Positions 7,820-22,748 of a stretch of DNA of 22,748 bases are shown piece after piece. A model generated the notes under the pieces. The model had not been told where the DNA came from. It worked only from the letters and a program-made list of their open reading frames with translations, and ran no database searches. Position 1 is the stretch's first letter; every line of letters starts with the position of its first letter. This DNA comes from Pseudomonadota bacterium (GTDB lineage: Bacteria > Desulfobacterota > Desulfobacteria > Desulfobacterales > Desulfobacteraceae): positions 1-22,748 of the forward strand of contig JAHIVS010000675.1 of assembly GCA_018816605.1 (NCBI GenBank), read 5' to 3'. The translations under genes and the position numbers were made by a program.

Positions 7820-8884
7820 TCATAAAAAGCAGATGTTGTCGCTGATCTGTTCCGGGTTCCCCGTGATTCTCCATAGGCCCTGTTGGGGGGTATGGGGGGT
7901 AAGGGTATAAAAGGAATCCGGATGATATCGGTTATACAAATAGGGAAATATAGGGGTTTGCTCGATTTTTGCCAGGTTCAGGGCCTGGGCCACGGCGGAG
8001 CACGCCAGGGCTGCTGTGCCGCAGGACAAGGTTTCCTTGTTGATGGCCCGTTCAAAGCACCGGTACTCGATGCAGGGCAGGCCGGACCCGGGGGCCTGGG
8101 ACATATGCACGAAAGTAAGGTTCAATCCCTTGGGGAAGAGATGCCCAAAGTTATTCTGGATTCTCATGCCCATGGCATGGATGAGCCGGTCGCCCAAAGA
8201 AGCGCGTCTGTTTTCGGAAGGGTCTTGGAAAACAAGGTTTGTCAGGCCGTGTTGATCTTTCATCTGGTCCGTGAAGACAACCAGATGGGGCTCTCCTGAG
8301 AAAACAAGGTATCCGGACAAACAGATTCTGGAATTGACGATGTCCAGACCGGCAATGTCGTCCTGGCGGAAATTGAGTTCAAGGGGGGTGATTTTATCGA
8401 TTCCCGGGAGAAAGGGCAGAATCACGCCCGGGTCTGCCAGACATTTGTCTGCCCGGGAGGTGTGCAATCCTTCCACAAAGGCACCTTTATGGTCATCCAC
8501 CCCCAGGCAGAGCACCTGGGGGGTTCTGGCATTGGTTGCAGCCAGCACAGAGACTCTGGGTTTATCCAAAAGCCGGGACAGATAGAGTCCGGTGACCAGG
8601 AGGCCGTTGAGACACAATAGGGATTCCGAACCATCGGGTTCAAAATGCCGGAAGATACAATCGATATTGTCAGGGGTGTGCCCGGAATCGTTTTTCTCTG
8701 CTTTCAAAACCTTTGGGGCTGAGAGGACCACCAGACCGTCTGCACCAATGCCGGTGTCCGAGTTTAGAATCCGTATGGAATAGTCTTTTTTTTCCGATTC
8801 AGCCACCATGATGTTTTGGGTTTCATCCAGTATGATGAAAGAATTTCCAAAATTGTGATATTTTCCGCAGGTTGTATTTTGCAT
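7820..8884 (-). CDS. DapF-like amino-acid epimerase (diaminopimelate epimerase fold) with altered substrate pocket
   Basis: A cofactor-independent two-cysteine epimerase of 354 residues, longer than DapF (about 275). Seen: KYHNFGNSFIILD at the N-terminus, TGIGADGL (44-51), first catalytic cysteine Cys91 in FEPDGSESLLCLNG, and second catalytic cysteine Cys288 in ERAINKETLSCGTAA. Both cysteines are kept, so racemisation or epimerisation chemistry is likely. Odd points: the DapF motif CGNG is CLNG here; the asparagine of the NADG motif, a substrate-binding residue in DapF, is Glu82; and there is an extra residue between ER and ETLSCG. The substrate is therefore probably not LL-diaminopimelate. 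A relative with a similar story is CntK, a DapF-fold histidine racemase in opine metallophore synthesis. It starts 6 bases after the GNAT gene and is probably the last gene of the operon. Likely role (inference): making a D-amino acid for a secreted product. Confidence 0.8.
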   Translation of the reverse strand: MQNTTCGKYHNFGNSFIILDETQNIMVAESEKKDYSIRILNSDTGIGADGLVVLSAPKVLKAEKNDSGHTPDNIDCIFRHFEPDGSESLLCLNGLLVTGLYLSRLLDKPRVSVLAATNARTPQVLCLGVDDHKGAFVEGLHTSRADKCLADPGVILPFLPGIDKITPLELNFRQDDIAGLDIVNSRICLSGYLVFSGEPHLVVFTDQMKDQHGLTNLVFQDPSENRRASLGDRLIHAMGMRIQNNFGHLFPKGLNLTFVHMSQAPGSGLPCIEYRCFERAINKETLSCGTAALACSAVAQALNLAKIEQTPIFPYLYNRYHPDSFYTLTPHTPQQGLWRITGNPEQISDNICFL

Positions 8885-8890
8885 CGCTTT

Positions 8891-9739
8891 CTATTCTTCT
8901 TTGCTTCTATTTTCAATTGAATAAATTCTTTTTCTTATGACCAGAAGTACGGCATCTTTTTCCGTAATCCCCAGGTCTTGTGCTAGGGTCGATTTTTTGT
9001 TGTTTTCATTCCATTTCAGGAAATTAAAATAGGTATTAACTTCCTTTCTGACAAGGTGGACCGTTAAATTATTTATCACGTCATCCAGTCGTCTTTGATT
9101 TTCTTTTACATGGCTTGCATAAATTCTTTTAAAGCATTTGAGAGTAAAATCAAGGTCTTTCTGGGGAAGGGGGATGGTTTTTCTCGTGTGTGCAACGGTT
9201 TCAACCCGTGGGAAAAACTCGTATGCATTTTGGATGTCCGCATCTTGTGTTTTGATCCAGGAATACAGAGAAGCCAGCTGGACGCAGGTGGTCATGAGGA
9301 TATCCGGTGACAGAAGGTGTAATATTTTTTCCGAGAAAATTCTGCCCAGACCATGGGTCTGGAATCCGGGGGCAACGGCCCGTATGTGGATGTAAATCAG
9401 GGAGGTCTCCTTTTCCTCTATCTGAAAAACACCATGGTCAAAGGCACACAGTGCAATCAGTTGCTCTTGTTCATTGCGTACAAAAATTGCCTGGCGGAGG
9501 GTGTTGCCTTTGGGGATATAAAAAAAATGCCGTACCATGTATTCCCAGTCATGTTTGTCCGCAAAGAGGGTCGGGAAAAAAAAGGTCAGGTCCTGTTCAA
9601 GGGCTTTTTGTTTTTCCCGGGGAAAGGCTGCGATCTGTTCGGTTGTCATTGATTCAAAGAACAGTCTTTTGGGGTCCTGTGCCGGAAGGGGTAAAAGCTG
9701 GTGAAAACTTTTCAGTGGTGTTGGAACGCTGAGGGTCAT
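8891..9739 (-). CDS. GNAT-like N-acyltransferase
   Basis: A 282-residue soluble protein. The clearest feature is a GNAT motif A at about residues 115-140, with two beta strands (SLIYIHIRAVAP) leading into the pyrophosphate-binding loop QTHGLG and a helix. This is the acetyl-CoA or acyl-CoA binding signature. The first 60 residues and the last 100 or so (helical, charged, with a basic KRIYSIENR end) are not recognisable to me. Its ATG directly follows the TAA of the sensor-MFS gene (TAAATG, no gap), so translation is coupled. With the epimerase it may form a two-enzyme unit that modifies an amino acid or its product. The acceptor is unknown, and acyl groups other than acetyl are possible. Confidence 0.7.
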   Translation of the reverse strand: MTLSVPTPLKSFHQLLPLPAQDPKRLFFESMTTEQIAAFPREKQKALEQDLTFFFPTLFADKHDWEYMVRHFFYIPKGNTLRQAIFVRNEQEQLIALCAFDHGVFQIEEKETSLIYIHIRAVAPGFQTHGLGRIFSEKILHLLSPDILMTTCVQLASLYSWIKTQDADIQNAYEFFPRVETVAHTRKTIPLPQKDLDFTLKCFKRIYASHVKENQRRLDDVINNLTVHLVRKEVNTYFNFLKWNENNKKSTLAQDLGITEKDAVLLVIRKRIYSIENRSKEE

Positions 9740-12142
9740 TTAAAGAGGGATATCCTTGTTTGAAAAATGGGTCAGCAAAAGAAAACCAATGCTCAGGAAC
9801 AGAAAAAATCCGCCCAGGCGCACGACGCCTTGGGTGGTGCTCCCGGAAACGGTAGCCCAGACAAAGGCCATGGGCCCCAATGCCTGGCCCAGTCTTGCCA
9901 GAAAGAAAATCAGGCTGGTGGCACGGCCTTCTCCAAATTGTTTGCTGATGGTAAGGTTCAGGGCATAGGCATTTCTCAGGGCATTGAAACTGGCGCCAAG
10001 CCCCAAAAAAAGAATGCTGATCACCACGGCCCTATAGCCGGAGGTGAAAAAAAAGGTTAAAAGGGTCATGCTGCACAGGATGCCGCCCGTGGTGATAGCG
10101 GCAATGCTGTGTTTCAGGGCATTGATTCTTCGGGTGATAAAGGGGGCAAGGTAAATCAGGCAGATGCCGTAGAGCATGAAAATTCTGCCGATGTCAGATT
10201 GGGAAATATTGTTTTTCTGGAGATAAATGGGTACAAAATAGTTGAGAAATCCCACAATGAGAACAGAAGCCGGAACAATATTCAGGAAAATCAGGCAAGC
10301 GATTTTTTTGTTGCCCAGAAATGCCGTTAAAGAAACCGGTTTTTCCTGGGTTTTGGAAAGAGCTGTTTTCCTGGAGTTTGGCAAATGGGATTTCAGAAAA
10401 AAGAAGACCCAGACAAACAGACAGATTAAAATACCAGACCCAACGAGAAACACCTGGGCAAATCCGATCTGTTCTGCCAGCATGCCGCCGGTGACAATCC
10501 CGCAAAGACTGCCGGCAATACATCCGGCATAATACTCGGACAGGCCCTGGGCTTTGTGTTCAGGAGGGGAATTGGTGGTCACAAAGTTCTGGCCCGCAAT
10601 ATAGGAGAGTCCGTATCCAAATCCGGCAATGGCAAGGGCGATAATAAAAAGGACCGGGGCGTTTGAGATGCCGGCGGCCAGAAATCCCAGTGCGGAGAAA
10701 ATCACCCCGATTAAAAAGGGCTGCTGCCAGCCTTTCCGGTCACACCAGGCCCCGACAATGAGAATGGAAATGGCGGAGAAAATCATTTGCACGGTGATGG
10801 GCAGGCCCAGGGAGATGTCCCGGAAGAGAAAAAAACCGGAGGCATTGGAATTGAGATTTTTCATATACAAAGGGACAAAGGAGACAACAATATCGATGGC
10901 AAAAAAATAGACAAAGGCAATGGGCCGGATGATCCGGGTGGATATATGGGATTTCCCTGACGGGGTGTGCTGTTTTTTCCGGAACCCGATAAAAAACAGA
11001 ATCATTATTTCCACACAAAAAAAGATGGAAATCACGATGGTGGTGGCGCTGTCCAGAAAGATTTTTCTCAAAAAAATGGTGAGGACGGTTTCGGAGATAA
11101 GCAGGGAAATCGCCCCTATCCTTTGATCCTTGTCCATTAAGGGCTTTGTTCTGACGTATTGGGGGGATTTGGTGACATCAAGTTTCCGCATGCCGGGTGA
11201 TCGATAATTTGTGCCGGATGTCTGGTCGGCATGGTACAGCACCTGGCCTTGGGGGTCTGTGATCATGATATCGCTAAATTCGGGGATATCCTTGATCATG
11301 TTGTGGATGGATCGTTCGGCCTGGTTCATCTGTTTCAGGTCGATCCCTTTTTTCACCAGGCCCTCCAGCTGATTTTTCATGAACTGGTTGATGACGTCCG
11401 CCTTGTCCTGGTTAAGGGTCAGGTAATGACGGCTGAAGTTGTGAATTTGTGAGGCGGAAAAAAGTATCTGGCACAGGACAATGATGCCGAAAATGCAATG
11501 GGAAAAGCCTTTGGTTTTGAGAAGGGTGGAAAGGGAATCCGCCTGGTTCCGGGCATGGCGCAAGCCCAGATAAAAAGTGAAAAAAAGCAGGACAAAAGAG
11601 AGCATCAGCACCCAGCACCAAGTGAAAAGGCTCTTTTTGATGATAAGGCCCAGATAGTCCAGAATCAATTTTTCAGGAAAAGAAATGACCTGAATTGCGG
11701 CCAGGGATTTGTCCCAGTTGTTGATGGGAAAGACGATAAAATAATGATGATCTTTGGTGAAAAAATTTTTTGAATCCCTTGAAAAGACCGGGGTATGGGT
11801 CAGGGACCCACGGGTGTCCAGGACAATTTCCAGGGATTGACCGGTTTTTTCGGTGGTGTATAAAATTTTTCCCTGGGGGGTGGTAATGAGCAGCTGTACA
11901 TCGGACCGGGCAGGCTGGATTGAATTTACATGGTTCAGGTAGGTGAGATTGCTTTCCATCAATGCGTCCATACCAAAGAAATTGTCGATTTTTTTCCCAA
12001 AACTCAAAGAGAGTTCTATTTTTTTTTTTAGAACGCCTCCGATGACATTGTATTGGGAAATGATGGAATTGACATAAATGGTTTTAAAGGCAAGGGTGCT
12101 TAAAAAGGTATTGAACCCCGTGGCAATGACGATGAGCAGCAT
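9740..12142 (-). CDS. MFS transporter fused to a duplicated Cache-like periplasmic sensor
   Basis: A membrane protein of 800 residues from ATG 12142. Order: a membrane anchor (about 1-20); a periplasmic Cache-like domain (about 22-165) with the typical start KKKIELSLSFGKKIDNFFGM; two membrane segments (about 172-195, 213-232); a second, weaker Cache-like domain (about 235-355; FSDIMITDPQGQVLYHADQ); a fourth segment (about 366-386); then a full 12-helix MFS carrier (about 400-795) with the inter-helix basic motif CDRKG. Cache domains normally sense small ligands for kinases or chemoreceptors, so a transporter gated or guided by an external ligand is suggested. Start problem: no ATG, GTG or TTG lies between 12319 and 12142. 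ATG 12319 would overlap the small upstream gene by 119 bases, ATG 12142 drops the charged segment before helix 1, and ATT 12205 overlaps the upstream stop. The N-terminus may therefore be up to 59 residues longer. Confidence 0.86.
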   Translation of the reverse strand: MLLIVIATGFNTFLSTLAFKTIYVNSIISQYNVIGGVLKKKIELSLSFGKKIDNFFGMDALMESNLTYLNHVNSIQPARSDVQLLITTPQGKILYTTEKTGQSLEIVLDTRGSLTHTPVFSRDSKNFFTKDHHYFIVFPINNWDKSLAAIQVISFPEKLILDYLGLIIKKSLFTWCWVLMLSFVLLFFTFYLGLRHARNQADSLSTLLKTKGFSHCIFGIIVLCQILFSASQIHNFSRHYLTLNQDKADVINQFMKNQLEGLVKKGIDLKQMNQAERSIHNMIKDIPEFSDIMITDPQGQVLYHADQTSGTNYRSPGMRKLDVTKSPQYVRTKPLMDKDQRIGAISLLISETVLTIFLRKIFLDSATTIVISIFFCVEIMILFFIGFRKKQHTPSGKSHISTRIIRPIAFVYFFAIDIVVSFVPLYMKNLNSNASGFFLFRDISLGLPITVQMIFSAISILIVGAWCDRKGWQQPFLIGVIFSALGFLAAGISNAPVLFIIALAIAGFGYGLSYIAGQNFVTTNSPPEHKAQGLSEYYAGCIAGSLCGIVTGGMLAEQIGFAQVFLVGSGILICLFVWVFFFLKSHLPNSRKTALSKTQEKPVSLTAFLGNKKIACLIFLNIVPASVLIVGFLNYFVPIYLQKNNISQSDIGRIFMLYGICLIYLAPFITRRINALKHSIAAITTGGILCSMTLLTFFFTSGYRAVVISILFLGLGASFNALRNAYALNLTISKQFGEGRATSLIFFLARLGQALGPMAFVWATVSGSTTQGVVRLGGFFLFLSIGFLLLTHFSNKDIPL

Positions 12143-12200
12143 GAAAGCAAGGATATATCCTTTGCTATCCTGCCAGGCAAGCTTATTTTCTTCCGGGTAC

Positions 12201-12359
12201 CTAATCGGTCGTTCTGTCCGAAGCCAGCACCAGTATAAGCCCGATGGCCGGAGTGAGCAGCAATGCTCCGAAAAAGTATCCCCAGAAACCGAATTTTCTG
12301 TTGGCGCCAAATATGGCAACAGCCAGGCTTAAGACAACATAGGGTATAAAAAGCGGCAT
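12201..12359 (-). CDS. Small two-helix membrane protein, function unknown
   Basis: A 52-residue protein with two hydrophobic helices (about 3-17 and 27-45) around a basic turn, ANRKFGFWGYFFGALLL, then TPAIGLILVLASD. The turn-plus-helix pattern (R-x-x-G-F-W-x-x-F-x-x-x-L-L-L-x-P-x-I-G-L) is familiar from small hypothetical membrane proteins of many bacteria, and I know of no assigned function. The start is ATG 12359 with AAGGAA about eight bases upstream; the longer frame to 12416 overlaps the SPFH gene and adds a lysine-rich tail. It sits 13 bases after the SPFH gene and just before the sensor-MFS gene, suggesting a partner or assembly role for one of these membrane proteins. Confidence 0.7.
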   Translation of the reverse strand: MPLFIPYVVLSLAVAIFGANRKFGFWGYFFGALLLTPAIGLILVLASDRTTD

Positions 12360-12372
12360 GGTAAGGTTTCCT

Positions 12373-13464
12373 TTATTCTTTTTGTTTGATGTCGCCATCA
12401 GGGTTCCTGTCCACAAAGGGATTCTGGCTTAATCGCTTGTTGAAGGTTTCCATGGCATCCCATATTTTTTTTGCGTCGGTGTATTCTTGATCCTGGGGAA
12501 CGCTTTCCGAGAGATTTTCACCATTTGGATCAAAAGTGGGCTCTTTTTTGGGTTCAGGCACCAGGGGGGCCTCCTGGAGAGGCGAAGGCTCTTTTGGAGG
12601 GACCGGGGCGTCGGGCGTCTGGACCCGGCCCGGACTGCCCTCTGTATTCAGAATAATGGGCAGCCCGTCTTTGCCGCCAATGACAATGATTTTGCTATTG
12701 GTGGATGTTGCAATCTCCTTTGTGGCCTGGATTCCCTGCCATTTTAGCAGGGGTTCTGAAAGGCTTTGGGCAATGATTTGCTGGTATTCTCTGATACCCG
12801 TGGCTTCGATGATGAGTCTTTCTTTCTCGGCAGTGGTTTTAAGGAGTTTATATTGGTATTCCAGATATTCCTGCTGATGTTTCAGCTTGGTTTCAATGGC
12901 CAGGTTGATCATGTCCGGCAATTTGATGAGTTCAATGATCATGTCCGAGTATATGATGGGAAGTCTTCCGGTCTCTTCAATGGTCCCCACCAGGATTTCA
13001 TCCTGGATAACATGGCGGGCCGTTGTGTACAGCTGTTCGGGCAGATATTTTCCGATCACTTCCCGGACAGATGAAATGGTGGAGGGAATGATCACCTTGT
13101 CCCTGTAATCTTCACCCACTTTCTGGTGCAGAAGGGGAACTTCATTCTTTAACAGGTAATACCGGACGGAAACAACCACCTTGATGGTCAAACCGTTCTG
13201 GCTCAGTACTTCCACCTCTTGTTTGAGTTTCTGGATTCTGACGTCGTAAACATACATCTTGTTCCAGGGAAGCAGAAAGTGAACCCCTTCCTTAAAACTT
13301 TTTTCAATCACCGTCCCTTTGTTGAAAAAACGCCTGAACTTGACACCGGTATGGCCCGGATACACCGTGACGATAATAGAGTCCCACAAATAAAAAACAG
13401 CAAACAGGGAAATCAGTCCAAAGACAATAAAAAACTCCAGGTTTCTTTTAAGAAATTTCTTCAT
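12373..13464 (-). CDS. SPFH/prohibitin (band 7) family membrane protein
   Basis: A 363-residue protein with one N-terminal membrane helix (about 8-30), a band-7/SPFH domain (about 33-230; VTVYPGHTGVKFRRFF, then FKEGVHFLLPWNKMYVYDVRIQ) and a helical stretch rich in Glu and Lys (about 195-250) that in the family mediates ring or cage assembly. A proline-rich linker follows (PVPPKEPSPLQEAPLVPEP), then a short charged tail. SPFH proteins organise membrane microdomains or cage membrane proteases. I see no FtsH, HflK or protease partner here; instead it sits in an export and sensing operon, so scaffolding of the exporter is plausible. Start ATG 13464 has GGA six bases upstream; a TTG at 13497 overlaps the previous stop and is less likely. 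A band-7 protein next to a SyrD-type exporter is not an arrangement I recognise as characterised. Confidence 0.88.
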   Translation of the reverse strand: MKKFLKRNLEFFIVFGLISLFAVFYLWDSIIVTVYPGHTGVKFRRFFNKGTVIEKSFKEGVHFLLPWNKMYVYDVRIQKLKQEVEVLSQNGLTIKVVVSVRYYLLKNEVPLLHQKVGEDYRDKVIIPSTISSVREVIGKYLPEQLYTTARHVIQDEILVGTIEETGRLPIIYSDMIIELIKLPDMINLAIETKLKHQQEYLEYQYKLLKTTAEKERLIIEATGIREYQQIIAQSLSEPLLKWQGIQATKEIATSTNSKIIVIGGKDGLPIILNTEGSPGRVQTPDAPVPPKEPSPLQEAPLVPEPKKEPTFDPNGENLSESVPQDQEYTDAKKIWDAMETFNKRLSQNPFVDRNPDGDIKQKE

Positions 13465-13493: not shown

Positions 13494-14033
13494 TCAATTA
13501 TTTTTTTTATATATAAAATTATTTTCATCGGGAAAGGCCCCGCCCCGCCAATAATTATCAAGACAAAATTCAATGCACCTGGCTTCGGTTTTAATACAGT
13601 CCTGTTCATTGGTCCCCGGCTCTCCATTGCACAAGCTTCCCGCAATGGGGCATTCTCTTATGCACCTTATGAAAAGGCCGCGCATGGGAGCCGATTTGAT
13701 GGTGTCCCTGGCCAATTGAACAATGATATTTGTATAGGCTCTTTTACAGGTATTGTTTCTTTCACTATAGGCGACCTGGGATGAATAACAGTCTTTTCGG
13801 TCTTGTATGATTTTGAAAATCGGGTCCCGGAGTTGCTCGGACACTTCGGTTTTTTTCGCCAGTTCATATTTTTCAAGGGAGGATTCAATGGCCTTTTTAT
13901 CATAGTTGTCCTGGCGGTGGCCTTTATACTGGTAGCCGTACACAAGTGCACATATGAGCCCTGAAACAAAAAGAATACCAAAGGCTCTTTTTGTTATCCG
14001 TACAGGGGGGAGGCGTTTTTCTTTCTTGTCCAT
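13494..14033 (-). CDS. Membrane-anchored protein with symmetric six-cysteine helical hairpin, unknown function
   Basis: I do not recognise a family. The protein has 179 residues: a basic cytoplasmic N-terminus (KKEKRLPPVRITKR), one membrane helix (about 17-34) and an extracytoplasmic region by the positive-inside rule. After the helix come Cys82 and Cys96, then six cysteines at 124, 128, 135, 146, 153 and 157. Their spacing is C-x3-C-x6-C-x10-C-x6-C-x3-C, a mirror-symmetric pattern that fits two antiparallel helices joined by a short Gly/Pro turn (NGEPGTNEQD) and held by three disulfides (124-157, 128-153, 135-146). Twin-CxnC helical hairpins are known in mitochondrial CHCH and small Tim proteins, but I claim no homology. 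It lies 8 bases after the exporter gene and 29 before the SPFH gene, so it may be a periplasmic accessory of the exporter. Confidence 0.78.
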   Translation of the reverse strand: MDKKEKRLPPVRITKRAFGILFVSGLICALVYGYQYKGHRQDNYDKKAIESSLEKYELAKKTEVSEQLRDPIFKIIQDRKDCYSSQVAYSERNNTCKRAYTNIIVQLARDTIKSAPMRGLFIRCIRECPIAGSLCNGEPGTNEQDCIKTEARCIEFCLDNYWRGGAFPDENNFIYKKNN

Positions 14034-14041
14034 GGCTTGTT

Positions 14042-15658
14042 TTATTTGCTTCCTTTGCTGAATTTGCCATAATCCATTTTAATGACCCTGTCAGCCACAT
14101 GGAAGAATCGGTCATCATGGCTGACCACAATTATGGTTTTTCCTCTTTTCTGAAGCTCCTTTAAGAGAACCTCATAAAAGTACTTTCTGAATTCCGGGGC
14201 CTGGTCAGCGGCCAGTTCATCAAACACATAAATCTGGGAGTCAGACAGGAGGGCCACGATCATTGCAAGCCGCTTTTTTTGTCCGGTGGACAATTTGATA
14301 TTGGTAAACCCCTTGTCTGTAAAAGCGGTTTTTTCTTCCAATTCCATTTTTTCAAGGTAATACTGGATTTTATCCTGATCAATGACATCAATGCCGTAAA
14401 GCTTGTCAAACAAATGAAAATCGGTGAAAATAATGGAAAATAATTCCCGGTAAGCCTGATACCCTTCCGGGTGGAGTAATTCACCGTTTAATCGGATATT
14501 GCCCCCTTCTGGATAGTAAAGTCCGGTGAGAATTTTTAAGACAGTGGATTTGCCGCTGCCGTTACCGCCCACAATAAACAGCAGTTCTCCTTTTTTAATG
14601 TTCAGATTGATATTGTCCAGGGTAAACAAGGTGTTTTTGTATTGGTCCTTGTAGTGGAAGATGATATTTTCAAGGGATATTTCCCGGAAGCCTTCTGTTT
14701 TTATCCGGTCATTATTTTCCGGTCTGAAAGCTGCGTCCAATTGTTGCTCAAGTTGGTAAATTTCAGAAATGGCCAGGTTTGACCTGGTTATCATGGGCAT
14801 TACCGCAACAATGGTGATGATGGGTCCCATGATGAATAGAATGGAGGTGACCAGCCGGGGGACAAGTTCTACGTAATCCGCACCAAATCGGGGCAGAAGA
14901 AACACAATGCCGGCCAGAAGAGAATAAAAGGTGATTTCGGCAAGCACCATGACCGTTACAAATTTCAACTGGGCTTTTACCATCAGGTCTTCGCTTTTCC
15001 GGGCAATGATTTCAACATCCGAAAAATAGTCATCACTTCTTTTCTGGTTTATTTTTAGTTCTTTAAACCCCAGGAAAATGCCGTTGATTTTATCAAAAAA
15101 TTGTTCCTGAACGGTTATGGATTGTTTGAGAAACCCGTGTGCCTCCCTGCTTTTTTTGGCGAAATAGAAAATAGCCAGGGCGATCAGGCCGGCTGAGCCC
15201 AGAAACGCCGGCAGGGAGAGCCAGGCAATATAGATGGAGCAAAAAAACAGCATGATTACGGACTGGCAGACGGAAACCGCCATAAGGGCGGTTTCTGAAA
15301 TGGTATTGACATTGTAGGTCAGTTTTGTATGGATTTCTGCCTGGCCGATATCCTCTATCAGCTTTAAATCTGCCTTTCTTGACTTATCAAGGATGCGAAT
15401 CCTGACCTTGGCCAGAATCTTTTCTATGATCACCGAGGTGTGCTTTAAGGCATAGGTTTTGCCGATTAAAAAAATCAGAAAAACAATGACAAACAGCATC
15501 AGATATTTAAAGTTCAGATCGTCTGAAGAGGCGTTCATGGAGACTGAATTTATGATAAAAAGGATCAGGGCGTTGGCAATGCCGGACAGGGACGACATGA
15601 CCAGAATAGGCGTCGCAGATACGACCGATTCTTTTTTATACAGCTCAATTAAATTCAA
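14042..15658 (-). CDS. Cyclic-peptide export ABC transporter (SyrD/PvdE family)
   Basis: An export ABC protein of 538 residues, membrane domain and ATPase in one chain. The length matches SyrD and PvdE (about 550), which move lipopeptide or pyoverdine precursors across the inner membrane. The first 300 or so residues carry six membrane segments. The ATPase part has Walker A GGNGSGKST, a Q-loop region, the signature LSTGQKKR (LSxGQ-type, as in this family), Walker B IYVFDELAAD and the H-loop VVSHDD. All ATPase motifs are intact. Start: TTG at 15658 with AGGAG eight bases upstream. It begins 82 bases after the substrate-binding gene and ends 8 bases before the cysteine-rich gene. With a fatty-acyl ligase and an NRPS starting 2.4 kb away on the other strand, export of that peptide is the natural reading (inference). 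Confidence 0.92.
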   Translation of the reverse strand: MNLIELYKKESVVSATPILVMSSLSGIANALILFIINSVSMNASSDDLNFKYLMLFVIVFLIFLIGKTYALKHTSVIIEKILAKVRIRILDKSRKADLKLIEDIGQAEIHTKLTYNVNTISETALMAVSVCQSVIMLFFCSIYIAWLSLPAFLGSAGLIALAIFYFAKKSREAHGFLKQSITVQEQFFDKINGIFLGFKELKINQKRSDDYFSDVEIIARKSEDLMVKAQLKFVTVMVLAEITFYSLLAGIVFLLPRFGADYVELVPRLVTSILFIMGPIITIVAVMPMITRSNLAISEIYQLEQQLDAAFRPENNDRIKTEGFREISLENIIFHYKDQYKNTLFTLDNINLNIKKGELLFIVGGNGSGKSTVLKILTGLYYPEGGNIRLNGELLHPEGYQAYRELFSIIFTDFHLFDKLYGIDVIDQDKIQYYLEKMELEEKTAFTDKGFTNIKLSTGQKKRLAMIVALLSDSQIYVFDELAADQAPEFRKYFYEVLLKELQKRGKTIIVVSHDDRFFHVADRVIKMDYGKFSKGSK

Positions 15659-15740: not shown

Positions 15741-16919
15741 TCATTTGGGGGGGATCTCTCTGTATATTTCATCTGCCGAGCTTAAGATATCCAGACTGGG
15801 ATAAAAACCAATGGCTTCGGCAGTGGTCAGGTTGATGGCAATTTTTGAGGGATCTTCAAAAATTTGGTTCAATTCTCCCGGCATGGCGCCATTGAGTATC
15901 TTTGCCAGGGTTTGGGCATAAAAATTTCCCACATATTTAAATCCGACCTGGGAGATACTTAACAGCAGACCCGCTTTGACTTCATTGGATCCTGCCTGGG
16001 AAAAGGTCGGTGTTTTTGTCTGTTTCGCAATGGCAGCCATTATGGGGATTGTGGTAGGATTGACGGCTTTCTGGCTGGTTACGTAGATGGCATCCACTGT
16101 TCCTGTAAGCTGTTTAAAACACGCAATCAGGCGTTGTTCATCTTCCGCAAGTGCGGCAGAGGCTTCCAAAAAGCATGTCTGGAGGGTAAATCCTCTTTCC
16201 CTGGCCACTTTTTTTACCTTGTCCACCGCAGCATAGCTTCTTCCCTCAACGTCGTTCCGGTAGATCGTACCCAGGGTATTAAATCCGGTAATGGTATGAA
16301 AGATTCGAACCTGGCGTTCGTAACGGTCCGGGTCAACCCGGGCATGGATAAACCGGTTCCCGGAATCATGGATATCATTGATTATTCCGGAAGATACGGC
16401 ATCACTGACGGCAAGAACGATTGTCGGTATTTGATGGTCCCCCCGGGACATATCAATGCCGGACCATGTCCCCATGGCAATCATCAGATCCAGGTCTTTT
16501 TTCCCATTGAGCCGGGAGATGAGTTCTGCTTTGATGCTTTTTCTTTTTACCGGGTCCCAGTCGCTGGTATAAAATCCGTCCGGTACAAGCTCAATATAGT
16601 CGCTTTCCAGGTGGCGGGAATAAAAATCCCATAAAGATTTCCCCGTGGCACCTTCCAGGGGAGGCAATTTTTGTTCTTTTATCCACCCAAGGGTGATCAG
16701 GCCTTTTATGGTTGCATCGATGTTTGTATGATACTCGCCGTAGTCGCCCCCCTCAATATATCCGATCCGCCATTTGACATTGCCTTTCTTAACGGGTGTT
16801 GTGGGAAATTTCTTTTTTTCTTCTCCGGCCAAACAGATGGAGAAAAGGCAATTGACTCCAAAAAATACGGCTATCAGGATAAAAAACAGGGTTGTCATAT
16901 GGTTAGAATTTCTGATCAT
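15741..16919 (-). CDS. ABC transporter substrate-binding protein (ABC_sub_bind, PF04392-like)
   Basis: A 392-residue periplasmic protein. An N-terminal hydrophobic segment (about 9-30) looks like a cleaved signal peptide ending near CLAGEE; no good lipobox is present. The rest follows the ABC_sub_bind family: WRIGYIEGGDYGEYHTNI, LDLMIAMGTWSGIDM, IPTIVLAVSDAVSSGII, a central hinge (FNTLGTIYRNDVEGRSYAAVDKV) and SVSQVG-like (LLLSISQVGFKYVG). Members bind amino acids or other small ligands and normally work with a permease and an ATPase. No importer permease or ATPase is present here, so it may be a sensor or an orphan receptor, or work with distant genes. The start is uncertain: neither ATG 16919 nor ATG 16898 has a clear ribosome site. 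It is the first gene of the minus-strand operon, facing the divergent promoter region. Confidence 0.85.
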   Translation of the reverse strand: MIRNSNHMTTLFFILIAVFFGVNCLFSICLAGEEKKKFPTTPVKKGNVKWRIGYIEGGDYGEYHTNIDATIKGLITLGWIKEQKLPPLEGATGKSLWDFYSRHLESDYIELVPDGFYTSDWDPVKRKSIKAELISRLNGKKDLDLMIAMGTWSGIDMSRGDHQIPTIVLAVSDAVSSGIINDIHDSGNRFIHARVDPDRYERQVRIFHTITGFNTLGTIYRNDVEGRSYAAVDKVKKVARERGFTLQTCFLEASAALAEDEQRLIACFKQLTGTVDAIYVTSQKAVNPTTIPIMAAIAKQTKTPTFSQAGSNEVKAGLLLSISQVGFKYVGNFYAQTLAKILNGAMPGELNQIFEDPSKIAINLTTAEAIGFYPSLDILSSADEIYREIPPK

Positions 16920-17263: not shown

Positions 17264-17758
17264 ATGACAAAGGAAACTGAAATGGATAAAAAAGAGGATG
17301 TTGTTGACAAGAAAGCAATTGCAAACGACATTATCCGAAAAAGAGTTTATGCATCCGTGGGTGCCGGTTTCGTACCCATCCCGATTTTTGATATCCTGGC
17401 TTTGTCCGGAATTCAGATCGAAATGGTGTCCAGGCTTTCACGGTTGTACGAAATACCCTTTAAAAAAGACATTGTAAAGACAGCCATTTCAGCCCTGGTG
17501 GGCGGTGTGCTTCCCGTGGCGGCAGCCCCCATGATTGCCGCTTTGGTGAAGCTTATCCCGGTTGTCGGGTATACCACCAGCGCCGTGACAATGAGTGCGG
17601 CAGGCGGTGCCAGCACCTATGCCATAGGAAAGGTTTTTGTCCAGCACTATGAATCCGGCGGCACCCTGCTTAATTTTAATGCCGAAAAGGTTAAAGAATA
17701 CTATGATGAAAAATTTAAAGAGGGTGAAAAAGTCGCAGCCGATGCAAAGGCCAAATAA
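17264..17758 (+). CDS. DUF697 family membrane-associated protein
   Basis: A 164-residue protein of the DUF697 (YcjF-like) type. After a charged N-terminus (about 1-25) the family core VYASVGAGFVPIPIFDILAL leads into GIQIEMVSRLSRLYEIPF, followed by two hydrophobic segments with Gly and Ala (about 70-93 and 95-120) and an amphipathic charged C-terminal helix (about 140-164). DUF697 domains are often found next to or fused with small GTPases; none is seen here. Function is unknown; a membrane-stress role is often assumed for relatives but is not shown. The start is firm: GGGAGG lies 7 bases before the ATG. The gene has its own candidate promoter and a strong terminator downstream, so it looks monocistronic and may be unrelated to the peptide genes. 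Confidence 0.85.
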   Translation: MTKETEMDKKEDVVDKKAIANDIIRKRVYASVGAGFVPIPIFDILALSGIQIEMVSRLSRLYEIPFKKDIVKTAISALVGGVLPVAAAPMIAALVKLIPVVGYTTSAVTMSAAGGASTYAIGKVFVQHYESGGTLLNFNAEKVKEYYDEKFKEGEKVAADAKAK

Positions 17759-18003
17759 ACGCGGTTTTTGTCTCTAGGTTTTCAGCCTTTTTGAATACCA
17801 TTGAAAACAATGCAGGGGCTTGTTTCCTGAAGATGTTGCCTGGGAACAGGCGGATATTTGCCGTGTCGGCTTCCCTTTTGAATCGCTTGTGCTCACCTTG
17901 GCAGAAACCGTCCCCTTCCCGGGGACGGTTTCTTTGTTTGATAAAACGCATGTTTCTGTTCTTTAAGCAAAAATCATTTTCATCTTAATTTTATTTGGAA
18001 TAT
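17759..18003 (+). other. Intergenic stretch with possible structured 3' RNA
   Basis: There is no convincing gene. From about 17812 the plus strand can fold into a chain of small stems, including GCCTG-GGAA-CAGGC (17838-17851, a GNRA-type tetraloop), ending in the terminator at 17904. After the terminator lies an AT-rich leader of the acyl ligase gene with a weak promoter-like TTGATA (17938-17943) and no clear -10 box. Confidence 0.35.
17904..17940 (+). terminator. Strong intrinsic terminator
   Basis: GAAACCGTCCCC (17904-17915) pairs perfectly with GGGGACGGTTTC (17921-17932) around a 5-base loop, giving a 12-base-pair stem followed by TTTGTTTG. It ends transcription 146 bases after the DUF697 stop, so the peptide genes downstream need their own promoter or read-through. 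Confidence 0.88.
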
Positions 18004-20136
18004 ATGGATAAATCCTTTACGTTGATTCACTTTCTGGAATCGGCAAAAAAATCAGGCAAAGGCATTACCTTCATCCAAGAGGGAGGGGGTGAGACTTACC
18101 TTTCCTATGGGGACCTTTTCAGGCAGGCGAAAGGCCTGTTGACAAATTTGAGGGATTCAGGCCTTTGTCCCGGCCAATCCCTGATTCTGCAGATTGCGGA
18201 CAACCAGAATTTTCTTGCCCTTTTCTGGGCTTGCCTCCTGGGGAAAATAATCCCGGTTCCCCTGACCCTAGCCCAGACAGATGAATATCGGCTCAAGCTT
18301 TTAAAAGTATGGGAGGTGCTCCAAACCCCTTATATTGCATTCGATGAAATCGTTTTTGACGGGTTTAAAACATATCTGGCCCGACAAGGGCGAACGGAAC
18401 TTTTGGCCAAGGTTATTGAAAACAAAATAGTCCCCACTACCTTTATCCCAATTTCCAAAGCCATGCCGGAACCGGAAATACTTGAAATGCCGGAGCCGGA
18501 TGATACGGCCTATATTCAATTTTCGTCCGGTTCCACCGGAGACCCCAGGGGAATTGTTCTTACCCATCACAACCTGGTGAACAATATTGGTTCCTTTCTG
18601 CTGGCAAAAAACGTCCAGCCGGAAGATTCCTATCTTTCCTGGCTGCCTTTGAGCCATGACCTGGGACTGATCGGATGGCATTTGAACCCCATGGCTGCCA
18701 GGGTCGATCAATACATCATGTCGCCGAAAACCTTTGTGAACGATCCTTGCATATGGTTTGACAAAGCCTGTGAACACAGGGTCAGCATTCTGTGTTCTCC
18801 CAACTTCGGGTTCAACCATTTCTTGAAATTTTTCCGGGGCACCCATGGCAAAGACTGGGACCTGTCCTGTGTCCGACTGATGCTGACAGGGGCTGAGCAT
18901 ATCAGTCACACCCTCTGCCATGCCTTTCTGGATGAATTGGCTGCCTTTGGTCTAAAGAAAACGGCTTTAATGGCGGGGTACGGCCTTGCCGAAGCAACCC
19001 TTGCCGTTTCCGTAAGCCCCAGGGGCGAAGCTTTTTCCACCCATTTTCTGGATGTGAATTCCCTGGGAGTCGGGGACAGGGCAAAGCGGGTTTTGCCCGG
19101 TGATGCCAATTGCGCGGCCTATGTGGACGAAGGCCCTCTTCTGCAGGGGTTTAAGGCTAAAATTTGTGATGACGGCGACCAGGAACTGCCAGAGGGGACC
19201 ATTGGACATATTCTGCTCAAATCTGAGAGTGTGTCCTCGGGGTATGTGAACAACCCTGTCGCCACAGCCGGAGCCTTTACCCGGGACGGGTGGCTTAAAA
19301 CCGGTGACCTGGGATTTGTCCTGAACCGGCGCATGGTGATCACGGGCAGGTCAAAGGAAATGATCATTGTCAATGGCGTCAATTTTTATCCCCATGACAT
19401 TGAGCGGGTGGTGGGAAAAGTAGAGGCAATCTCCAATCGGCCCGTGGTCGCCTGGGGAGAGGCGGATAAAAACGGGGCAACAGAAGAACTGATTGTATTT
19501 GTATCCCATAAAAAAGCTTTGGACGCATTTGTCCCCGTGATTCAAAAAATAAAAGAACAGGTGGCCAGGGAGTTCAATCTGCCCGTATCCCGGGTGATTC
19601 CCCTGGAATCCATTCCCAGAACCACCAGTGGAAAACTCCAGCGGGTTAAACTGGGTCTGCTTTACCGCCAGGGTTCGTTCGACCCTATTGTTCACCAGGT
19701 GAACCGATTGTGCCATGCCCGGCTCAAACGGCTGAATATCTTTGAAATAGTCCCCGAAAAAAGGGTCAGGGTGCTGACGGACTTTATCTGTGAGCAGGCC
19801 GGGTCTCTCATGGGTTCGGACCCGATTGATCCGGACCTGTCCCTTGTGGGCCAGGGATTTGACTCTCTCATGGGGATAGAACTGCGCAATATCATTGAAT
19901 GCGCCTTGGGAATCGGTTTGCCGATTTCCTGGCTCCGAAAAGAGGAAAGCCTGTGGCGATTTTCCGCAAGAATATTGGAAACCATCCTTGAAAAAGAAAA
20001 TCAGGGGCCCGGGTCTGAAGATATTCCCGGGGAAAAAGAAATCGCTGCCCCGTCATCCCTGCTTGAACAGATTAAATATATCGACCAGATGAGTGAAGAT
20101 CAGATCCTGGAAATGATCAAGGCACTTGAGTCTTAA
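18004..20136 (+). CDS. Fatty-acyl-AMP ligase fused to an acyl/peptidyl carrier domain (lipopeptide loading protein)
   Basis: A 710-residue loading protein. An adenylating domain of the FAAL type (about 1-575) shows the core motifs FSSGSTGDPRGIVLTHHNL (ATP loop), SWLPLSHDLGLIG (the FAAL counterpart of WLPLYHDMGLIG), GYGLAEATLAVS, KTGDLGF, RSKEMIIVNGVNFYPHDIE and the C-terminal lysine motif PRTTSGKLQRVKL. A carrier domain follows (about 590-665) with GQGFDSLMGIEL, where the serine takes the phosphopantetheine arm. A helical tail (YIDQMSEDQILEMIKALES) resembles docking ends of PKS/NRPS chains. The family activates a fatty acid as acyl-AMP and loads it on the carrier for a peptide synthetase. Start ATG 18004 has GGA 5 bases upstream; TTG 17995 is an alternative. 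The NRPS gene begins 24 bases after its stop. Confidence 0.9.
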   Translation: MDKSFTLIHFLESAKKSGKGITFIQEGGGETYLSYGDLFRQAKGLLTNLRDSGLCPGQSLILQIADNQNFLALFWACLLGKIIPVPLTLAQTDEYRLKLLKVWEVLQTPYIAFDEIVFDGFKTYLARQGRTELLAKVIENKIVPTTFIPISKAMPEPEILEMPEPDDTAYIQFSSGSTGDPRGIVLTHHNLVNNIGSFLLAKNVQPEDSYLSWLPLSHDLGLIGWHLNPMAARVDQYIMSPKTFVNDPCIWFDKACEHRVSILCSPNFGFNHFLKFFRGTHGKDWDLSCVRLMLTGAEHISHTLCHAFLDELAAFGLKKTALMAGYGLAEATLAVSVSPRGEAFSTHFLDVNSLGVGDRAKRVLPGDANCAAYVDEGPLLQGFKAKICDDGDQELPEGTIGHILLKSESVSSGYVNNPVATAGAFTRDGWLKTGDLGFVLNRRMVITGRSKEMIIVNGVNFYPHDIERVVGKVEAISNRPVVAWGEADKNGATEELIVFVSHKKALDAFVPVIQKIKEQVAREFNLPVSRVIPLESIPRTTSGKLQRVKLGLLYRQGSFDPIVHQVNRLCHARLKRLNIFEIVPEKRVRVLTDFICEQAGSLMGSDPIDPDLSLVGQGFDSLMGIELRNIIECALGIGLPISWLRKEESLWRFSARILETILEKENQGPGSEDIPGEKEIAAPSSLLEQIKYIDQMSEDQILEMIKALES

Positions 20137-20160: not shown

Positions 20161-22748
20161 ATGTCCGATTCCGGGATCAACCGCCACTCTTTTGGGGCCA
20201 AAAAGCAATTACTGGAAAAATTATTAAGACAAAAGGCCTATGAAAATCGGCAGATTCTACCCCTGTCCATGGGCCAGACATCTGTTTTCCTGGCCCACCT
20301 GGAACAGCCCCGAGGCCATGCCTATAACATCCTGTTTTCCTTTAAAATCTTAACCCGGGTCAGTCTGCCGGCACTGGAAAAGTCTTTTCAACTGCTGGTG
20401 GACCGCCACGAGATTTTGCGGACCACCTATGGGTTTGAAAAGGGGATGGCGGCCCAGACAATCCACGGTCATATGGATGGGGTTCTTGGGCACAAAAATG
20501 TTACGGGTCTGGATGAGGCCCAGATAAAACATAGGCTTATCATGGATTCCCGCCACCCCTTTGACCTTTTCTGCGGCCCTGTCATCCGGGCCTGCCTGTA
20601 TTCCAGGGGCCAGGCGCACCATTACTTTTTATTGGGGTTGCACCACATTGCCGGTGATGCCCGCTCCCTGCTGGGCATGGCAAAGGAATTGCTCGAAAGC
20701 TATGGCCGGTTGTCCCAAGGTCAGAAGATATCCTCCTTTGGCATGCCCCGGTCCCAGTACCGGGATTTTGTTCAATGGGAGCAGGATCTGCTGGCAGGCC
20801 CACAGGGGAAAATTCTGGAAACATATTGGGACAACGCCCTTTCTGGCAAGCTTCCGGTTTTGGAGTTGCCTGTGTCCATCCGGTCAGAGAAAAAAAAAGC
20901 GTTCAACAGCCTTTGTGTCGAGGTGGACAGGGATCTTTCAGACAGGCTTAGGGCTTTTGCCAGGCAGCGGGGAATCGGTTTTAACACCCTTATTTTCTCG
21001 GCATTTGCCCTTCTTTTACACGAATATGCAAACCAGGATGACGTTCTTGTGGGCATGCCGTCCAGCACCCTTCTTTCCCTGCCTTTGGACAAGGTGCACC
21101 CCGATGTTACCGGATACCTGGTAAATCCTGTGGTGATCAGAAGTGTTCTCCGGAAAAAGGTGTTGTCCTATTTGAAAGAGCTTGAAAACACCATTTCCAT
21201 GGCCCTGGACCACCAGGCATACCCATTTTATAAGGTTCAGGAGAAAAAATCCAAGGAACAACAAACCCCTGGGGCCGGCATTTTTACGGCAATGTTCAAT
21301 TACCTGGCCTTTCCTGAAACAGAGATCCTGGATCCCCTGGTGGCTCCGATACAAAAGGAGCAGATCGTTAGGGCCGGCGATCTCGTTTTGTCGAGTTTTC
21401 CTTTGCCCCAGCAGGAAGGGGTTTTTGACCTTTGCATGACCATTACCCGGGCCAGCGGTTCGGTCTATGCGTCCCTTTCCTTTGATGAAAACCGTTTCAG
21501 CCCGGAATCCATTGGCCAGAAGCTAACGGATTATACCCGGCTGCTGAATGCCATGACCCAGGATCCGGAATCCGATATCTGCGATCTGCTTGAAACCTGC
21601 GGCATATTCGGGTCCCCGGTTCTGGTGGAAAACACCCGGAGTTCAACGGATCTTTGCCGCAACGCCCACATGACCCGAAACCAGCTGTTAACCTGGATGG
21701 GACAAAAGCTTCGGCCGGACATCCCCTATTATAGTACCCCCCATTTGTTTTTCCTCACAGGCCCGGTTCAGGTGGCAAATTTTTTAGAGGCCTTTGACGC
21801 GATTGTAAGGAAAAGTTCGTCCTTAAGAAGTCTGTTTGTTGAAAAGGAGGGCCTGCCCGTAAGAATCGTGTCGGACAGCCCCAAGTCCTGCCGGTATTTT
21901 GATTTTTCCAGGATGTCCGATGCTGGCTTTTCCCGATGGACCCATAAAATGGTTCTTAAAAAATTCAATTTGCAAAAGGGAGCATACCGGTCTTTCCTGA
22001 TCAAGCGCAGCAGCAATGACCATATCTGGTTTTTGAATCTGCATCATCTGGTGGTGGACGGGTGGTCCTGCAACCAGGTGATTTTCCCCCTCATGTCCCT
22101 GTTTTATGAAAAGGCTGTTCAAAAGAAGGGTCTTGAAACCCCATGGGACCTGGATTACGAAACCTACCTGGCCTGGGAAACGGAGAACCAGGATACCCTG
22201 GAATTTAAAATAAGCCAAAGATTCTGGGCAAACCGGCTGAAAAATAAGCCGGATCCCATACGATTCTACGATGCCTATCCCGATTATCAGTCCACACGGG
22301 TGAAACGCAGGCGGTTTCATCTGGGCCCCCCCAGGACTGCAGGTCTTGTAAAAATGGCCGCACACAAGGAATTTTTCACCAAAAACCTGAACGTGTCCCT
22401 GGTCAATATATTTACCAGCCTTGTTTTTGTCCTTTTGCACAAAATCAGCGGCAATGGCAATCTGTCCGTGGGTGTCAACCTCCATCGCCGAAGGGATCTG
22501 CGGTTTAAAAAAACCATCGGGCTTGTCATGTACGAGCTGCCCATGGTGGTGACCCTGGCAGGGGACGAGACCTTTGTCAGCCTGAACCGGCAGGTGATCC
22601 GTGAAGGGGCCGCCATGGTCAGACACAATGATGTGACCGTGACCAATCCCCATGACACCCCCCATTATGATGTGGTCATCAATTTTATCAGCCTGAACCG
22701 GCCGGATTTTGCCAATGTCCAAATTTCGGGCGGATGGATTCATTCGGG
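20161..22748 (+). CDS. Nonribosomal peptide synthetase, N-terminal part with two tandem condensation domains (cut by window edge)
   Basis: I translated this frame by eye: it is open from ATG 20161 to the last base, 862 residues, so the gene continues outside. Condensation domain 1 (about 30-470) shows LPLSMGQTSVFLAHLEQP, DRHEILRTTY, active-site LHHIAGDARS (161-167; the usual DG is DA), RDFVQWEQDLL, TLIFSAFALLLHEYANQDDVLVGMP, GYLVNPVVIR and HQAYPFYKV. Condensation domain 2 (about 500-862) shows a weak RHExLRT (KSSSLRSLF), a complete LHHLVVDGWS (628-634), YETYLAWE, IFTSLVFVLLHKISGNGNLSVGV and IGLVMYELPMVV. No adenylation or carrier domain lies between the two. AAGGGAG is 11 bases before the ATG. 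The protein should accept the acyl chain from the upstream loading protein, making a lipopeptide (inference from the pair). Confidence 0.93.
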   Translation, partial: MSDSGINRHSFGAKKQLLEKLLRQKAYENRQILPLSMGQTSVFLAHLEQPRGHAYNILFSFKILTRVSLPALEKSFQLLVDRHEILRTTYGFEKGMAAQTIHGHMDGVLGHKNVTGLDEAQIKHRLIMDSRHPFDLFCGPVIRACLYSRGQAHHYFLLGLHHIAGDARSLLGMAKELLESYGRLSQGQKISSFGMPRSQYRDFVQWEQDLLAGPQGKILETYWDNALSGKLPVLELPVSIRSEKKKAFNSLCVEVDRDLSDRLRAFARQRGIGFNTLIFSAFALLLHEYANQDDVLVGMPSSTLLSLPLDKVHPDVTGYLVNPVVIRSVLRKKVLSYLKELENTISMALDHQAYPFYKVQEKKSKEQQTPGAGIFTAMFNYLAFPETEILDPLVAPIQKEQIVRAGDLVLSSFPLPQQEGVFDLCMTITRASGSVYASLSFDENRFSPESIGQKLTDYTRLLNAMTQDPESDICDLLETCGIFGSPVLVENTRSSTDLCRNAHMTRNQLLTWMGQKLRPDIPYYSTPHLFFLTGPVQVANFLEAFDAIVRKSSSLRSLFVEKEGLPVRIVSDSPKSCRYFDFSRMSDAGFSRWTHKMVLKKFNLQKGAYRSFLIKRSSNDHIWFLNLHHLVVDGWSCNQVIFPLMSLFYEKAVQKKGLETPWDLDYETYLAWETENQDTLEFKISQRFWANRLKNKPDPIRFYDAYPDYQSTRVKRRRFHLGPPRTAGLVKMAAHKEFFTKNLNVSLVNIFTSLVFVLLHKISGNGNLSVGVNLHRRRDLRFKKTIGLVMYELPMVVTLAGDETFVSLNRQVIREGAAMVRHNDVTVTNPHDTPHYDVVINFISLNRPDFANVQISGGWIHS

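Follow-up and report, generated by a model that had tools for sequence, protein, structure and literature searches.

Between a peptide exporter and an SPFH protein of a Desulfobacteraceae genome lies a small gene for a membrane-anchored protein with a mirror-symmetric run of cysteines, and the question is what such a protein does in such company. The window, by which we mean the whole stretch of 22,748 nucleotides analysed here (contig JAHIVS010000675.1 of assembly GCA_018816605.1), holds the features collected in Table 1, and the gene is named CYS here. A first-pass annotation had drawn attention to a six-cysteine mirror on the minus strand, and its coordinates proved exact, C124 through C157 running from 13664 down to 13563 with a spacing of 3-6-10-6-3. 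The translated open reading frame has cysteines at positions 28, 82, 96, 124, 128, 135, 146, 153 and 157. The count of six was right as far as it went, but it overlooked the conserved C82 and C96, with which the conserved extracytoplasmic cysteines number eight. C28 lies within the membrane segment and is unconserved (4/44 aligned rows).

Table 1. Features of the window around the CYS gene (aa, amino acids).
Feature	Position	Strand	Remarks
MFS transporter, long N-terminal part	9740..12319	-	Conserved in synteny
Prohibitin-type SPFH (Band_7) protein	12373..13464	-	PF01145, 76.7 bits (cut-off 23.6), 2.9e-21; starts 29 bases after the CYS stop
CYS gene	13494..14033	-	179 aa; membrane anchor at the N-terminus; extracytoplasmic domain predicted to be all helical; has homologues
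Six-cysteine mirror segment, residues 124-157	13563..13664	-	C-x3-C-x6-C-x10-C-x6-C-x3-C; predicted kinked helical hairpin
C82-x13-C96, second conserved (invariant) cysteine pair	13746..13790	-	Predicted helix-turn-helix 66-85 / 89-111
CYS membrane anchor (approximately residues 13-35) after a basic N-terminus	13929..13997	-	From hydropathy; N-in, C-out would be expected from the positive-inside rule
Cyclic peptide export ABC transporter	14042..15658	-	TIGR01194, 335.8 bits (cut-off 286.2); ends 8 bases upstream of CYS
ABC_sub_bind-type substrate-binding protein	15741..16919	-	Recurrent gene set
DUF697 protein	17264..17758	+	Recurrent gene set
Fatty acyl-AMP ligase with carrier domain	17995..20136	+	Putative lipopeptide starter
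NRPS with condensation domain	20161..22746	+	Cut by the window end

Judged by their sequences, the window genes around CYS may be read as a lipopeptide locus. The two neighbours that had been claimed, a peptide exporter and an SPFH scaffold, were both confirmed by domain matches. The exporter passes the cut-off of TIGR01194, which we take to comprise the SyrD/PvdE-type cyclic peptide exporters; its matches in PADLOC are to ATPase domains common to defence proteins. No FtsH was found among the scanned window genes. Other genes of the locus are of note in their own right. The MFS transporter carries some 460 extra N-terminal residues before its MFS_1 match, and a form of it at about 25% identity recurs in loci L034-L037. 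A DapF-like protein (7820-8884) scores 75.3 bits against an equivalog cut-off of 114.65 and is syntenic in L001; it is perhaps an epimerase that provides the peptide with a D-amino acid. Beside the DapF-like gene a 282-residue protein (8891-9739), which has no Pfam or NCBIfam match, is syntenic in L001 at 54% identity. The DUF697 gene recurs with the exporter in the window, L013, L020 and L034-L039, and also in the separate exporter loci of CYS genomes (L042-L045 and L048).

With the outer two cysteines fixed and the four inner ones placed at random, a mirror arises by chance with a probability of 0.0033. Shuffles of the whole protein gave any six-cysteine mirror run in 61/20000 cases, and one spanning at most 40 residues in 10/20000. 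The pattern had been picked by eye, so these figures are not compelling by themselves; conservation is the better evidence, and it settles that the pattern is real. A protein search found 18 relatives in addition to the query (E <= 0.001), and 39 were found with an enlarged profile; a third profile search returned 21 proteins, only P0047 and P0048 being new, and missed many of the earlier relatives. Scans of genome contigs gave no locus with the single-protein query and one with the first profile. CYS was found in 11/389 genomes of the class to which G001 belongs (the genome with L001), in 9/395 genomes of its phylum (a sample that overlaps those of the class and the order), and in 4/242 genomes of the order of G217, each of which was already known. 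The sources, where named, are Desulfobacteraceae, Desulfamplus and Deltaproteobacteria metagenome-assembled genomes, and the remotest members (L034-L041) share 22-28% identity with the window protein. The annotation had known of no bacterial family with this pattern in such a setting, and in the curated collections searched the window protein matched no family of Pfam, NCBIfam, PADLOC or PHROGs at E <= 0.01. Searches of CYS members against Pfam and NCBIfam gave scattered weak matches to unrelated families, one to three members each, which we treated as chance. The CYS profile found no relative among the IMG/VR viral contigs. Four matches of a PDB profile search (E 0.018-0.58) covered columns 14-113, outside the six-cysteine part, and were set aside.

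The fate of the individual cysteines was followed in a tree and alignment of 51 of 57 sequences, from which six contained duplicates had been removed; P0036 was excluded, and L006, L009, L014, L018 and L019 were included, five of ten distant locus rows that an earlier alignment had omitted because each has a near-identical protein record in it. The arm spacings of 3,6 and 6,3 are constant in 51/51 homologues, and the central spacing between C135 and C146 ranges from 9 to 16. The proposed exact mirror about a Gly/Pro turn thus stands for the arms, but neither the x10 loop nor the Gly/Pro turn is conserved, and a mirror that includes the loop was rejected on the strength of its variable length. 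Fixed arms joined by a variable loop are what one would expect if two rigid helices faced each other and the loop between them were free. All eight conserved cysteines are retained in 37/51 rows. C82, C96, C135 and C146 are invariant (51/51, with the C82-C96 alignment of L040 and L041 perturbed by a cysteine-bearing insertion), position 124 is altered in 13 rows and position 157 in nine, and in every row where 157 is missing 124 is missing as well. Joint absence of 124 and 157 occurs in three distinct parts of the tree (L034-L039; P0017 with P0019; P0015), that of 128 and 153 in one lineage (P0004), and no double loss of non-mirror partners was found among the 51 rows. On the unrooted tree the outer pair of L034-L039 may have been lost or never gained. 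Loss in mirror pairs only, which had been expected, describes the 124/157 and 128/153 absences, but 124 is lost singly in four of the 51 rows (P0005, P0006, P0007 and P0009), which speaks against the proposal in its strict form. The first three of these form a supported clade with P0015, which indicates that 124 was lost before 157 there. The direction of loss is nevertheless orderly, the outer rung going first and its 124 side before the other, and mirror pairing is favoured. The insertion in the variants of L040 (3244-3771) and L041 (8156-8830) is about 50 residues long, and its further cysteines include a CxxC; the SPFH gene comes next after CYS in both loci, followed in L041 by a TPR-like protein (by eye).

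The AlphaFold2 model of CYS, built with 44 sequences, has a mean pLDDT of 83 and a pTM of 0.68, and pLDDT reaches 92-96 over the block of residues 121-160. Besides the N-terminal helices, it predicts helices at 66-85, 89-111, 118-126, 128-136 and 143-162; an earlier model from 19 sequences was similar, the end of the middle helix differing (133-137). C124, C128 and C135 fall in the broken helix 118-136 and C146, C153 and C157 in the helix 143-162, and in each arm the three cysteines lie within 40 degrees of one helical face by arithmetic at 100 degrees per residue. The predicted helices therefore sit where the helical arms of the proposed hairpin need them. Searches with the all-helical model by Foldseek and VIA-align 2 gave weak matches only. 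Most members have a single hydrophobic N-terminal segment, whereas, as read by eye, those of L034-L037 begin like a signal peptide with an Ala-rich, cleavage-like end, and a lipobox-like motif stands at the start of those of L041 and P0046. That one domain is exported by three different kinds of N-terminus argues that CYS works outside the cytoplasm, the location first proposed for it from the window protein. The paired cysteines probably fasten two helices to each other on the outer side of the inner membrane.

Whether the hosts could make the proposed disulfides is a question in itself. Among the 19 CYS genomes, whose completeness is not reported, DsbB was found in two and VKOR in one, three different genomes, and DsbA in 11; in the other 16 both DsbB and VKOR were unfound. 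No canonical disulfide-making route is thus evident in most CYS hosts, and this makes a metal site a serious rival. Here the invariant C82, C96, C135 and C146, or a core six, would bind zinc or an iron-sulfur cluster in an anoxic periplasm, the outer pairs being accessory. Exactly these four cysteines are the ones never lost, and zinc is bound by the reduced twin CX3C small Tim proteins (PMC3759932, in excerpt). On the other hand, the remaining cysteines vanish mostly as mirror pairs, which is explained by pairing and not by a four-ligand site. The residues that replace them are mostly non-ligands (S, A, G, T, N, M, Y, F and V, with one H), and no metal family matched significantly, Fer4_10 appearing in 2/25 members with a best E of 0.087. 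We regard a metal site as a real, though less likely, possibility, and keep disulfide pairing as the preferred reading of the cysteines.

The most constant feature of the CYS loci is the neighbouring SPFH gene. CYS lies directly upstream of it on the same strand in the window and in 18/19 fetched loci, and in L036 four-base overlaps occur both at the exporter/CYS and at the CYS/SPFH boundary. The exporter shares the locus in 12/20 cases including the window (11/19 fetched). Three of the eight loci without it (L006, L009 and L040) are shorter than 4 kb and uninformative. The other five (L014, L015, L017, L018 and L019) have long flanks and keep the CYS-SPFH pair with the exporter on another contig, beside LPS-transport-type genes that were recognised by eye, except in L014, where LptC, an LptA-type protein and sigma-54 were confirmed by Pfam. 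The genomes of L006, L009 and these five loci have one exporter match each, on another contig. The expectation that homologues would stand next to SyrD-type exporters and keep all six cysteines was therefore borne out in part: the exporter is nearby in those 12 loci only, and most but not all homologues keep the six, while the near-constant neighbour is SPFH. The exporter was rejected as a fixed partner of CYS, because CYS and SPFH stay together where the exporter is elsewhere.

At the level of whole genomes the exporter is tied to both genes. It was found at E <= 1e-40 in 18/19 CYS genomes, the miss being G394, where CYS lies on a 3.9-kb contig. The exception with regard to SPFH is G751, the genome of L039, which has CYS and a 194-residue exporter match and gave no SPFH match at E <= 1e-10; it counts against a strict link. 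Of the 389 genomes sampled from the class of G001, 11 have CYS, 36 SPFH (E <= 1e-60) and 39 the exporter (E <= 1e-50), at most three or five first-look candidates being scored per genome in the SPFH and exporter scans, and the SPFH profile having been built from CYS-linked proteins, whose scores it favours. The exporter was present in 11/11 of the CYS genomes and in 36/36 of the SPFH genomes of this sample; three genomes (G201, G307 and G381) have the exporter and no SPFH match even at E <= 1e-10. As every CYS genome and every SPFH genome of this sample has the exporter, exporter and SPFH are the core pair, of which CYS marks a subset. The larger group of SPFH and exporter genomes, 25 of 36, works without CYS, which speaks against CYS as their partner. 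These 25 gave no CYS match better than E 0.5, and no convincing divergent CYS was found in exporter and SPFH loci that lack a recognised one. Ten exporter loci were fetched from CYS-less SPFH genomes; SPFH lies within the fetched stretch in seven, and an NRPS-like gene in four (L049, L050, L056 and L057; domains confirmed for L049 and L057). As an observation apart from CYS, the SPFH-exporter unit is general and wider than CYS, by its co-occurrence in all 36 genomes and the stretch shared in 7/10 CYS-less loci. Several CYS-less loci with both genes also have a lipoprotein-like protein of about 910 residues after SPFH (L050:11996-14722, L051:4930-7662, L053:1308-4034 and L055:12092-14848); that of L050 fuses Peripla_BP_6 and SBP_bac_5 binding domains, an unusual double binder.

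The SPFH proteins themselves carry the mark of CYS. A tree of 40 of them, that of the window and one from each of 39 loci, covers 19/25 CYS-less genomes (G062, G113, G122, G124, G211 and G243 being excluded), and a single branch with support 100/100 separates the 19 proteins with CYS from the 21 without. No label shuffle reproduced this split (0/500), and removal of the long branch of L038 left it the same (18 and 21). One event is enough to explain a single split, which therefore speaks for a lasting association with CYS and not for its repeated gain. The same reasoning leaves room for passive linkage, in which CYS and SPFH would be co-inherited in one operon without a common function, and the gene order is indeed common to related bacteria. 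Yet the pair has been retained among CYS proteins that share 22-55% identity with that of the window, and in differing neighbourhoods, NRPS/PKS loci as against the lptC/lptA locus of L014 and loci that resemble it, and we hold passive linkage to be improbable. Adjacency of the two genes is nevertheless not the same as binding of their products. As to the kind of SPFH protein, all seven distinct PDB sequences that matched that of the window at E <= 0.01 bear the name prohibitin (best 2.3e-16), with prohibitin 2 and 1 as its best solved relatives. Prohibitins are described as building bells that face the intermembrane space (PMC11991916, in excerpt).

Taken together, these results lead us to propose, at about even chances, that CYS is a helical protein of the periplasm, stapled by cysteines, and the partner of a prohibitin-like assembly that serves a nonribosomal-peptide exporter. 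The anchor, secretion signal or lipid would bring the CYS domain to the periplasmic side of the membrane, where prohibitin-like domes stand. Of its two predicted helical hairpins, the first would probably be stapled by C82-C96 and the second by nested pairs, 135-146 inside, 128-153 in the middle and a dispensable 124-157 outside. CYS would most likely join or cap the SPFH dome, and the dome would organise an export site for nonribosomal (lipo)peptides around the cyclic-peptide ABC exporter. A bolder version, which we consider unlikely, is a prohibitin-like dome around the exporter with a cysteine-laddered subunit of its own, by which it is capped or gated in response to redox or metal state; if true, this would be an exporter compartment of a kind absent from the literature matches listed.

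A plain redox switch, in which the ladder would be reduced or oxidised in a sulfidic periplasm and thereby open or close the SPFH-exporter assembly, could draw on the many cysteines, the partly dispensable outer rung, and host names (Desulfobacteraceae, Desulfamplus) that suggest sulfate reducers. It strikes us as quite improbable: the main CYS family has no conserved CxxC, and no recurring redox partner gene was recognised in the subset of neighbours searched. That CYS is cargo, an immunity factor or a precursor handled by the exporter with which it shares the window and 11 fetched loci is hardly credible, given that it stays with SPFH when the two part, is strongly conserved and usually anchored, and is followed by the SPFH tree.

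The exact functions of most bacterial SPFH proteins are still unclear (PMC12005517, in excerpt). Here one small gene marks a single subfamily of prohibitin-type SPFH proteins. This provides a concrete, testable case in which a bacterial relative of prohibitin is linked to the export of natural products and has a proposed cysteine-rich partner specific to its subfamily. It also raises the question of how hosts without an evident DsbB or VKOR would build a cysteine ladder. The literature matches listed, mostly open-access and seen as titles and starts of abstracts, contained no account of a bacterial SPFH protein with a cysteine-rich partner, nor of a locus of this type. In our view CYS is a new helical family with a cysteine ladder and may be a new partner of SPFH proteins, but it is not a wholly new sort of system.

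Several known systems invite comparison. The SPFH protein of the window stands closest to PHB2 and PHB1 among solved structures and is here tied to a peptide exporter; no partner of prohibitin is known to us that has a cysteine ladder of this sort, and neither cysteine nor disulfide is mentioned in PMC12624060. To our knowledge, the classical pseudomonad SyrD/PvdE loci have no SPFH or CYS gene. HflK/HflC offers the precedent of a periplasmic SPFH cage that encloses a membrane machine, its client FtsH (PMC12624060, in excerpt). The SPFH protein of the window scores far below the cut-off of the hflK model (17.1 bits against 159.4).

For the cysteines, the nearest parallels are known helical hairpins. 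CHCH or twin CX9C proteins are helical hairpins with nested disulfides; CYS resembles them in its predicted hairpin and nested pairs, but has no CX9C (spacings 3, 6, 9-16, 6 and 3), and no CHCH model was among the listed Pfam matches (E up to 10) of 25 CYS members. The small Tim proteins are soluble hexameric chaperones of membrane proteins. They have two CX3C motifs on a helical hairpin, joined by one outer and one inner disulfide (PMC3759932, in excerpt). CYS likewise has a twin CX3C (C124-x3-C128 and C153-x3-C157), whose spacing holds in 51/51 rows, although both outer cysteines are missing in nine, and it too is placed outside an energised membrane. It differs in that its motifs are separated by 24 residues, among them a further pair of cysteines, and in being bacterial and usually membrane-anchored. 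The small Tim model zf-Tim10_DDP (PF02953) stayed below its gathering score, with a match in 1/25 members (E 0.24) and none listed for the window protein. Small Tim proteins show disulfides and, when reduced, zinc, so both states are plausible for a layout like that of CYS. By its profile match CYS is not a member of the small Tim family, but it would work like a twin CX3C hairpin to which one further rung has been added.
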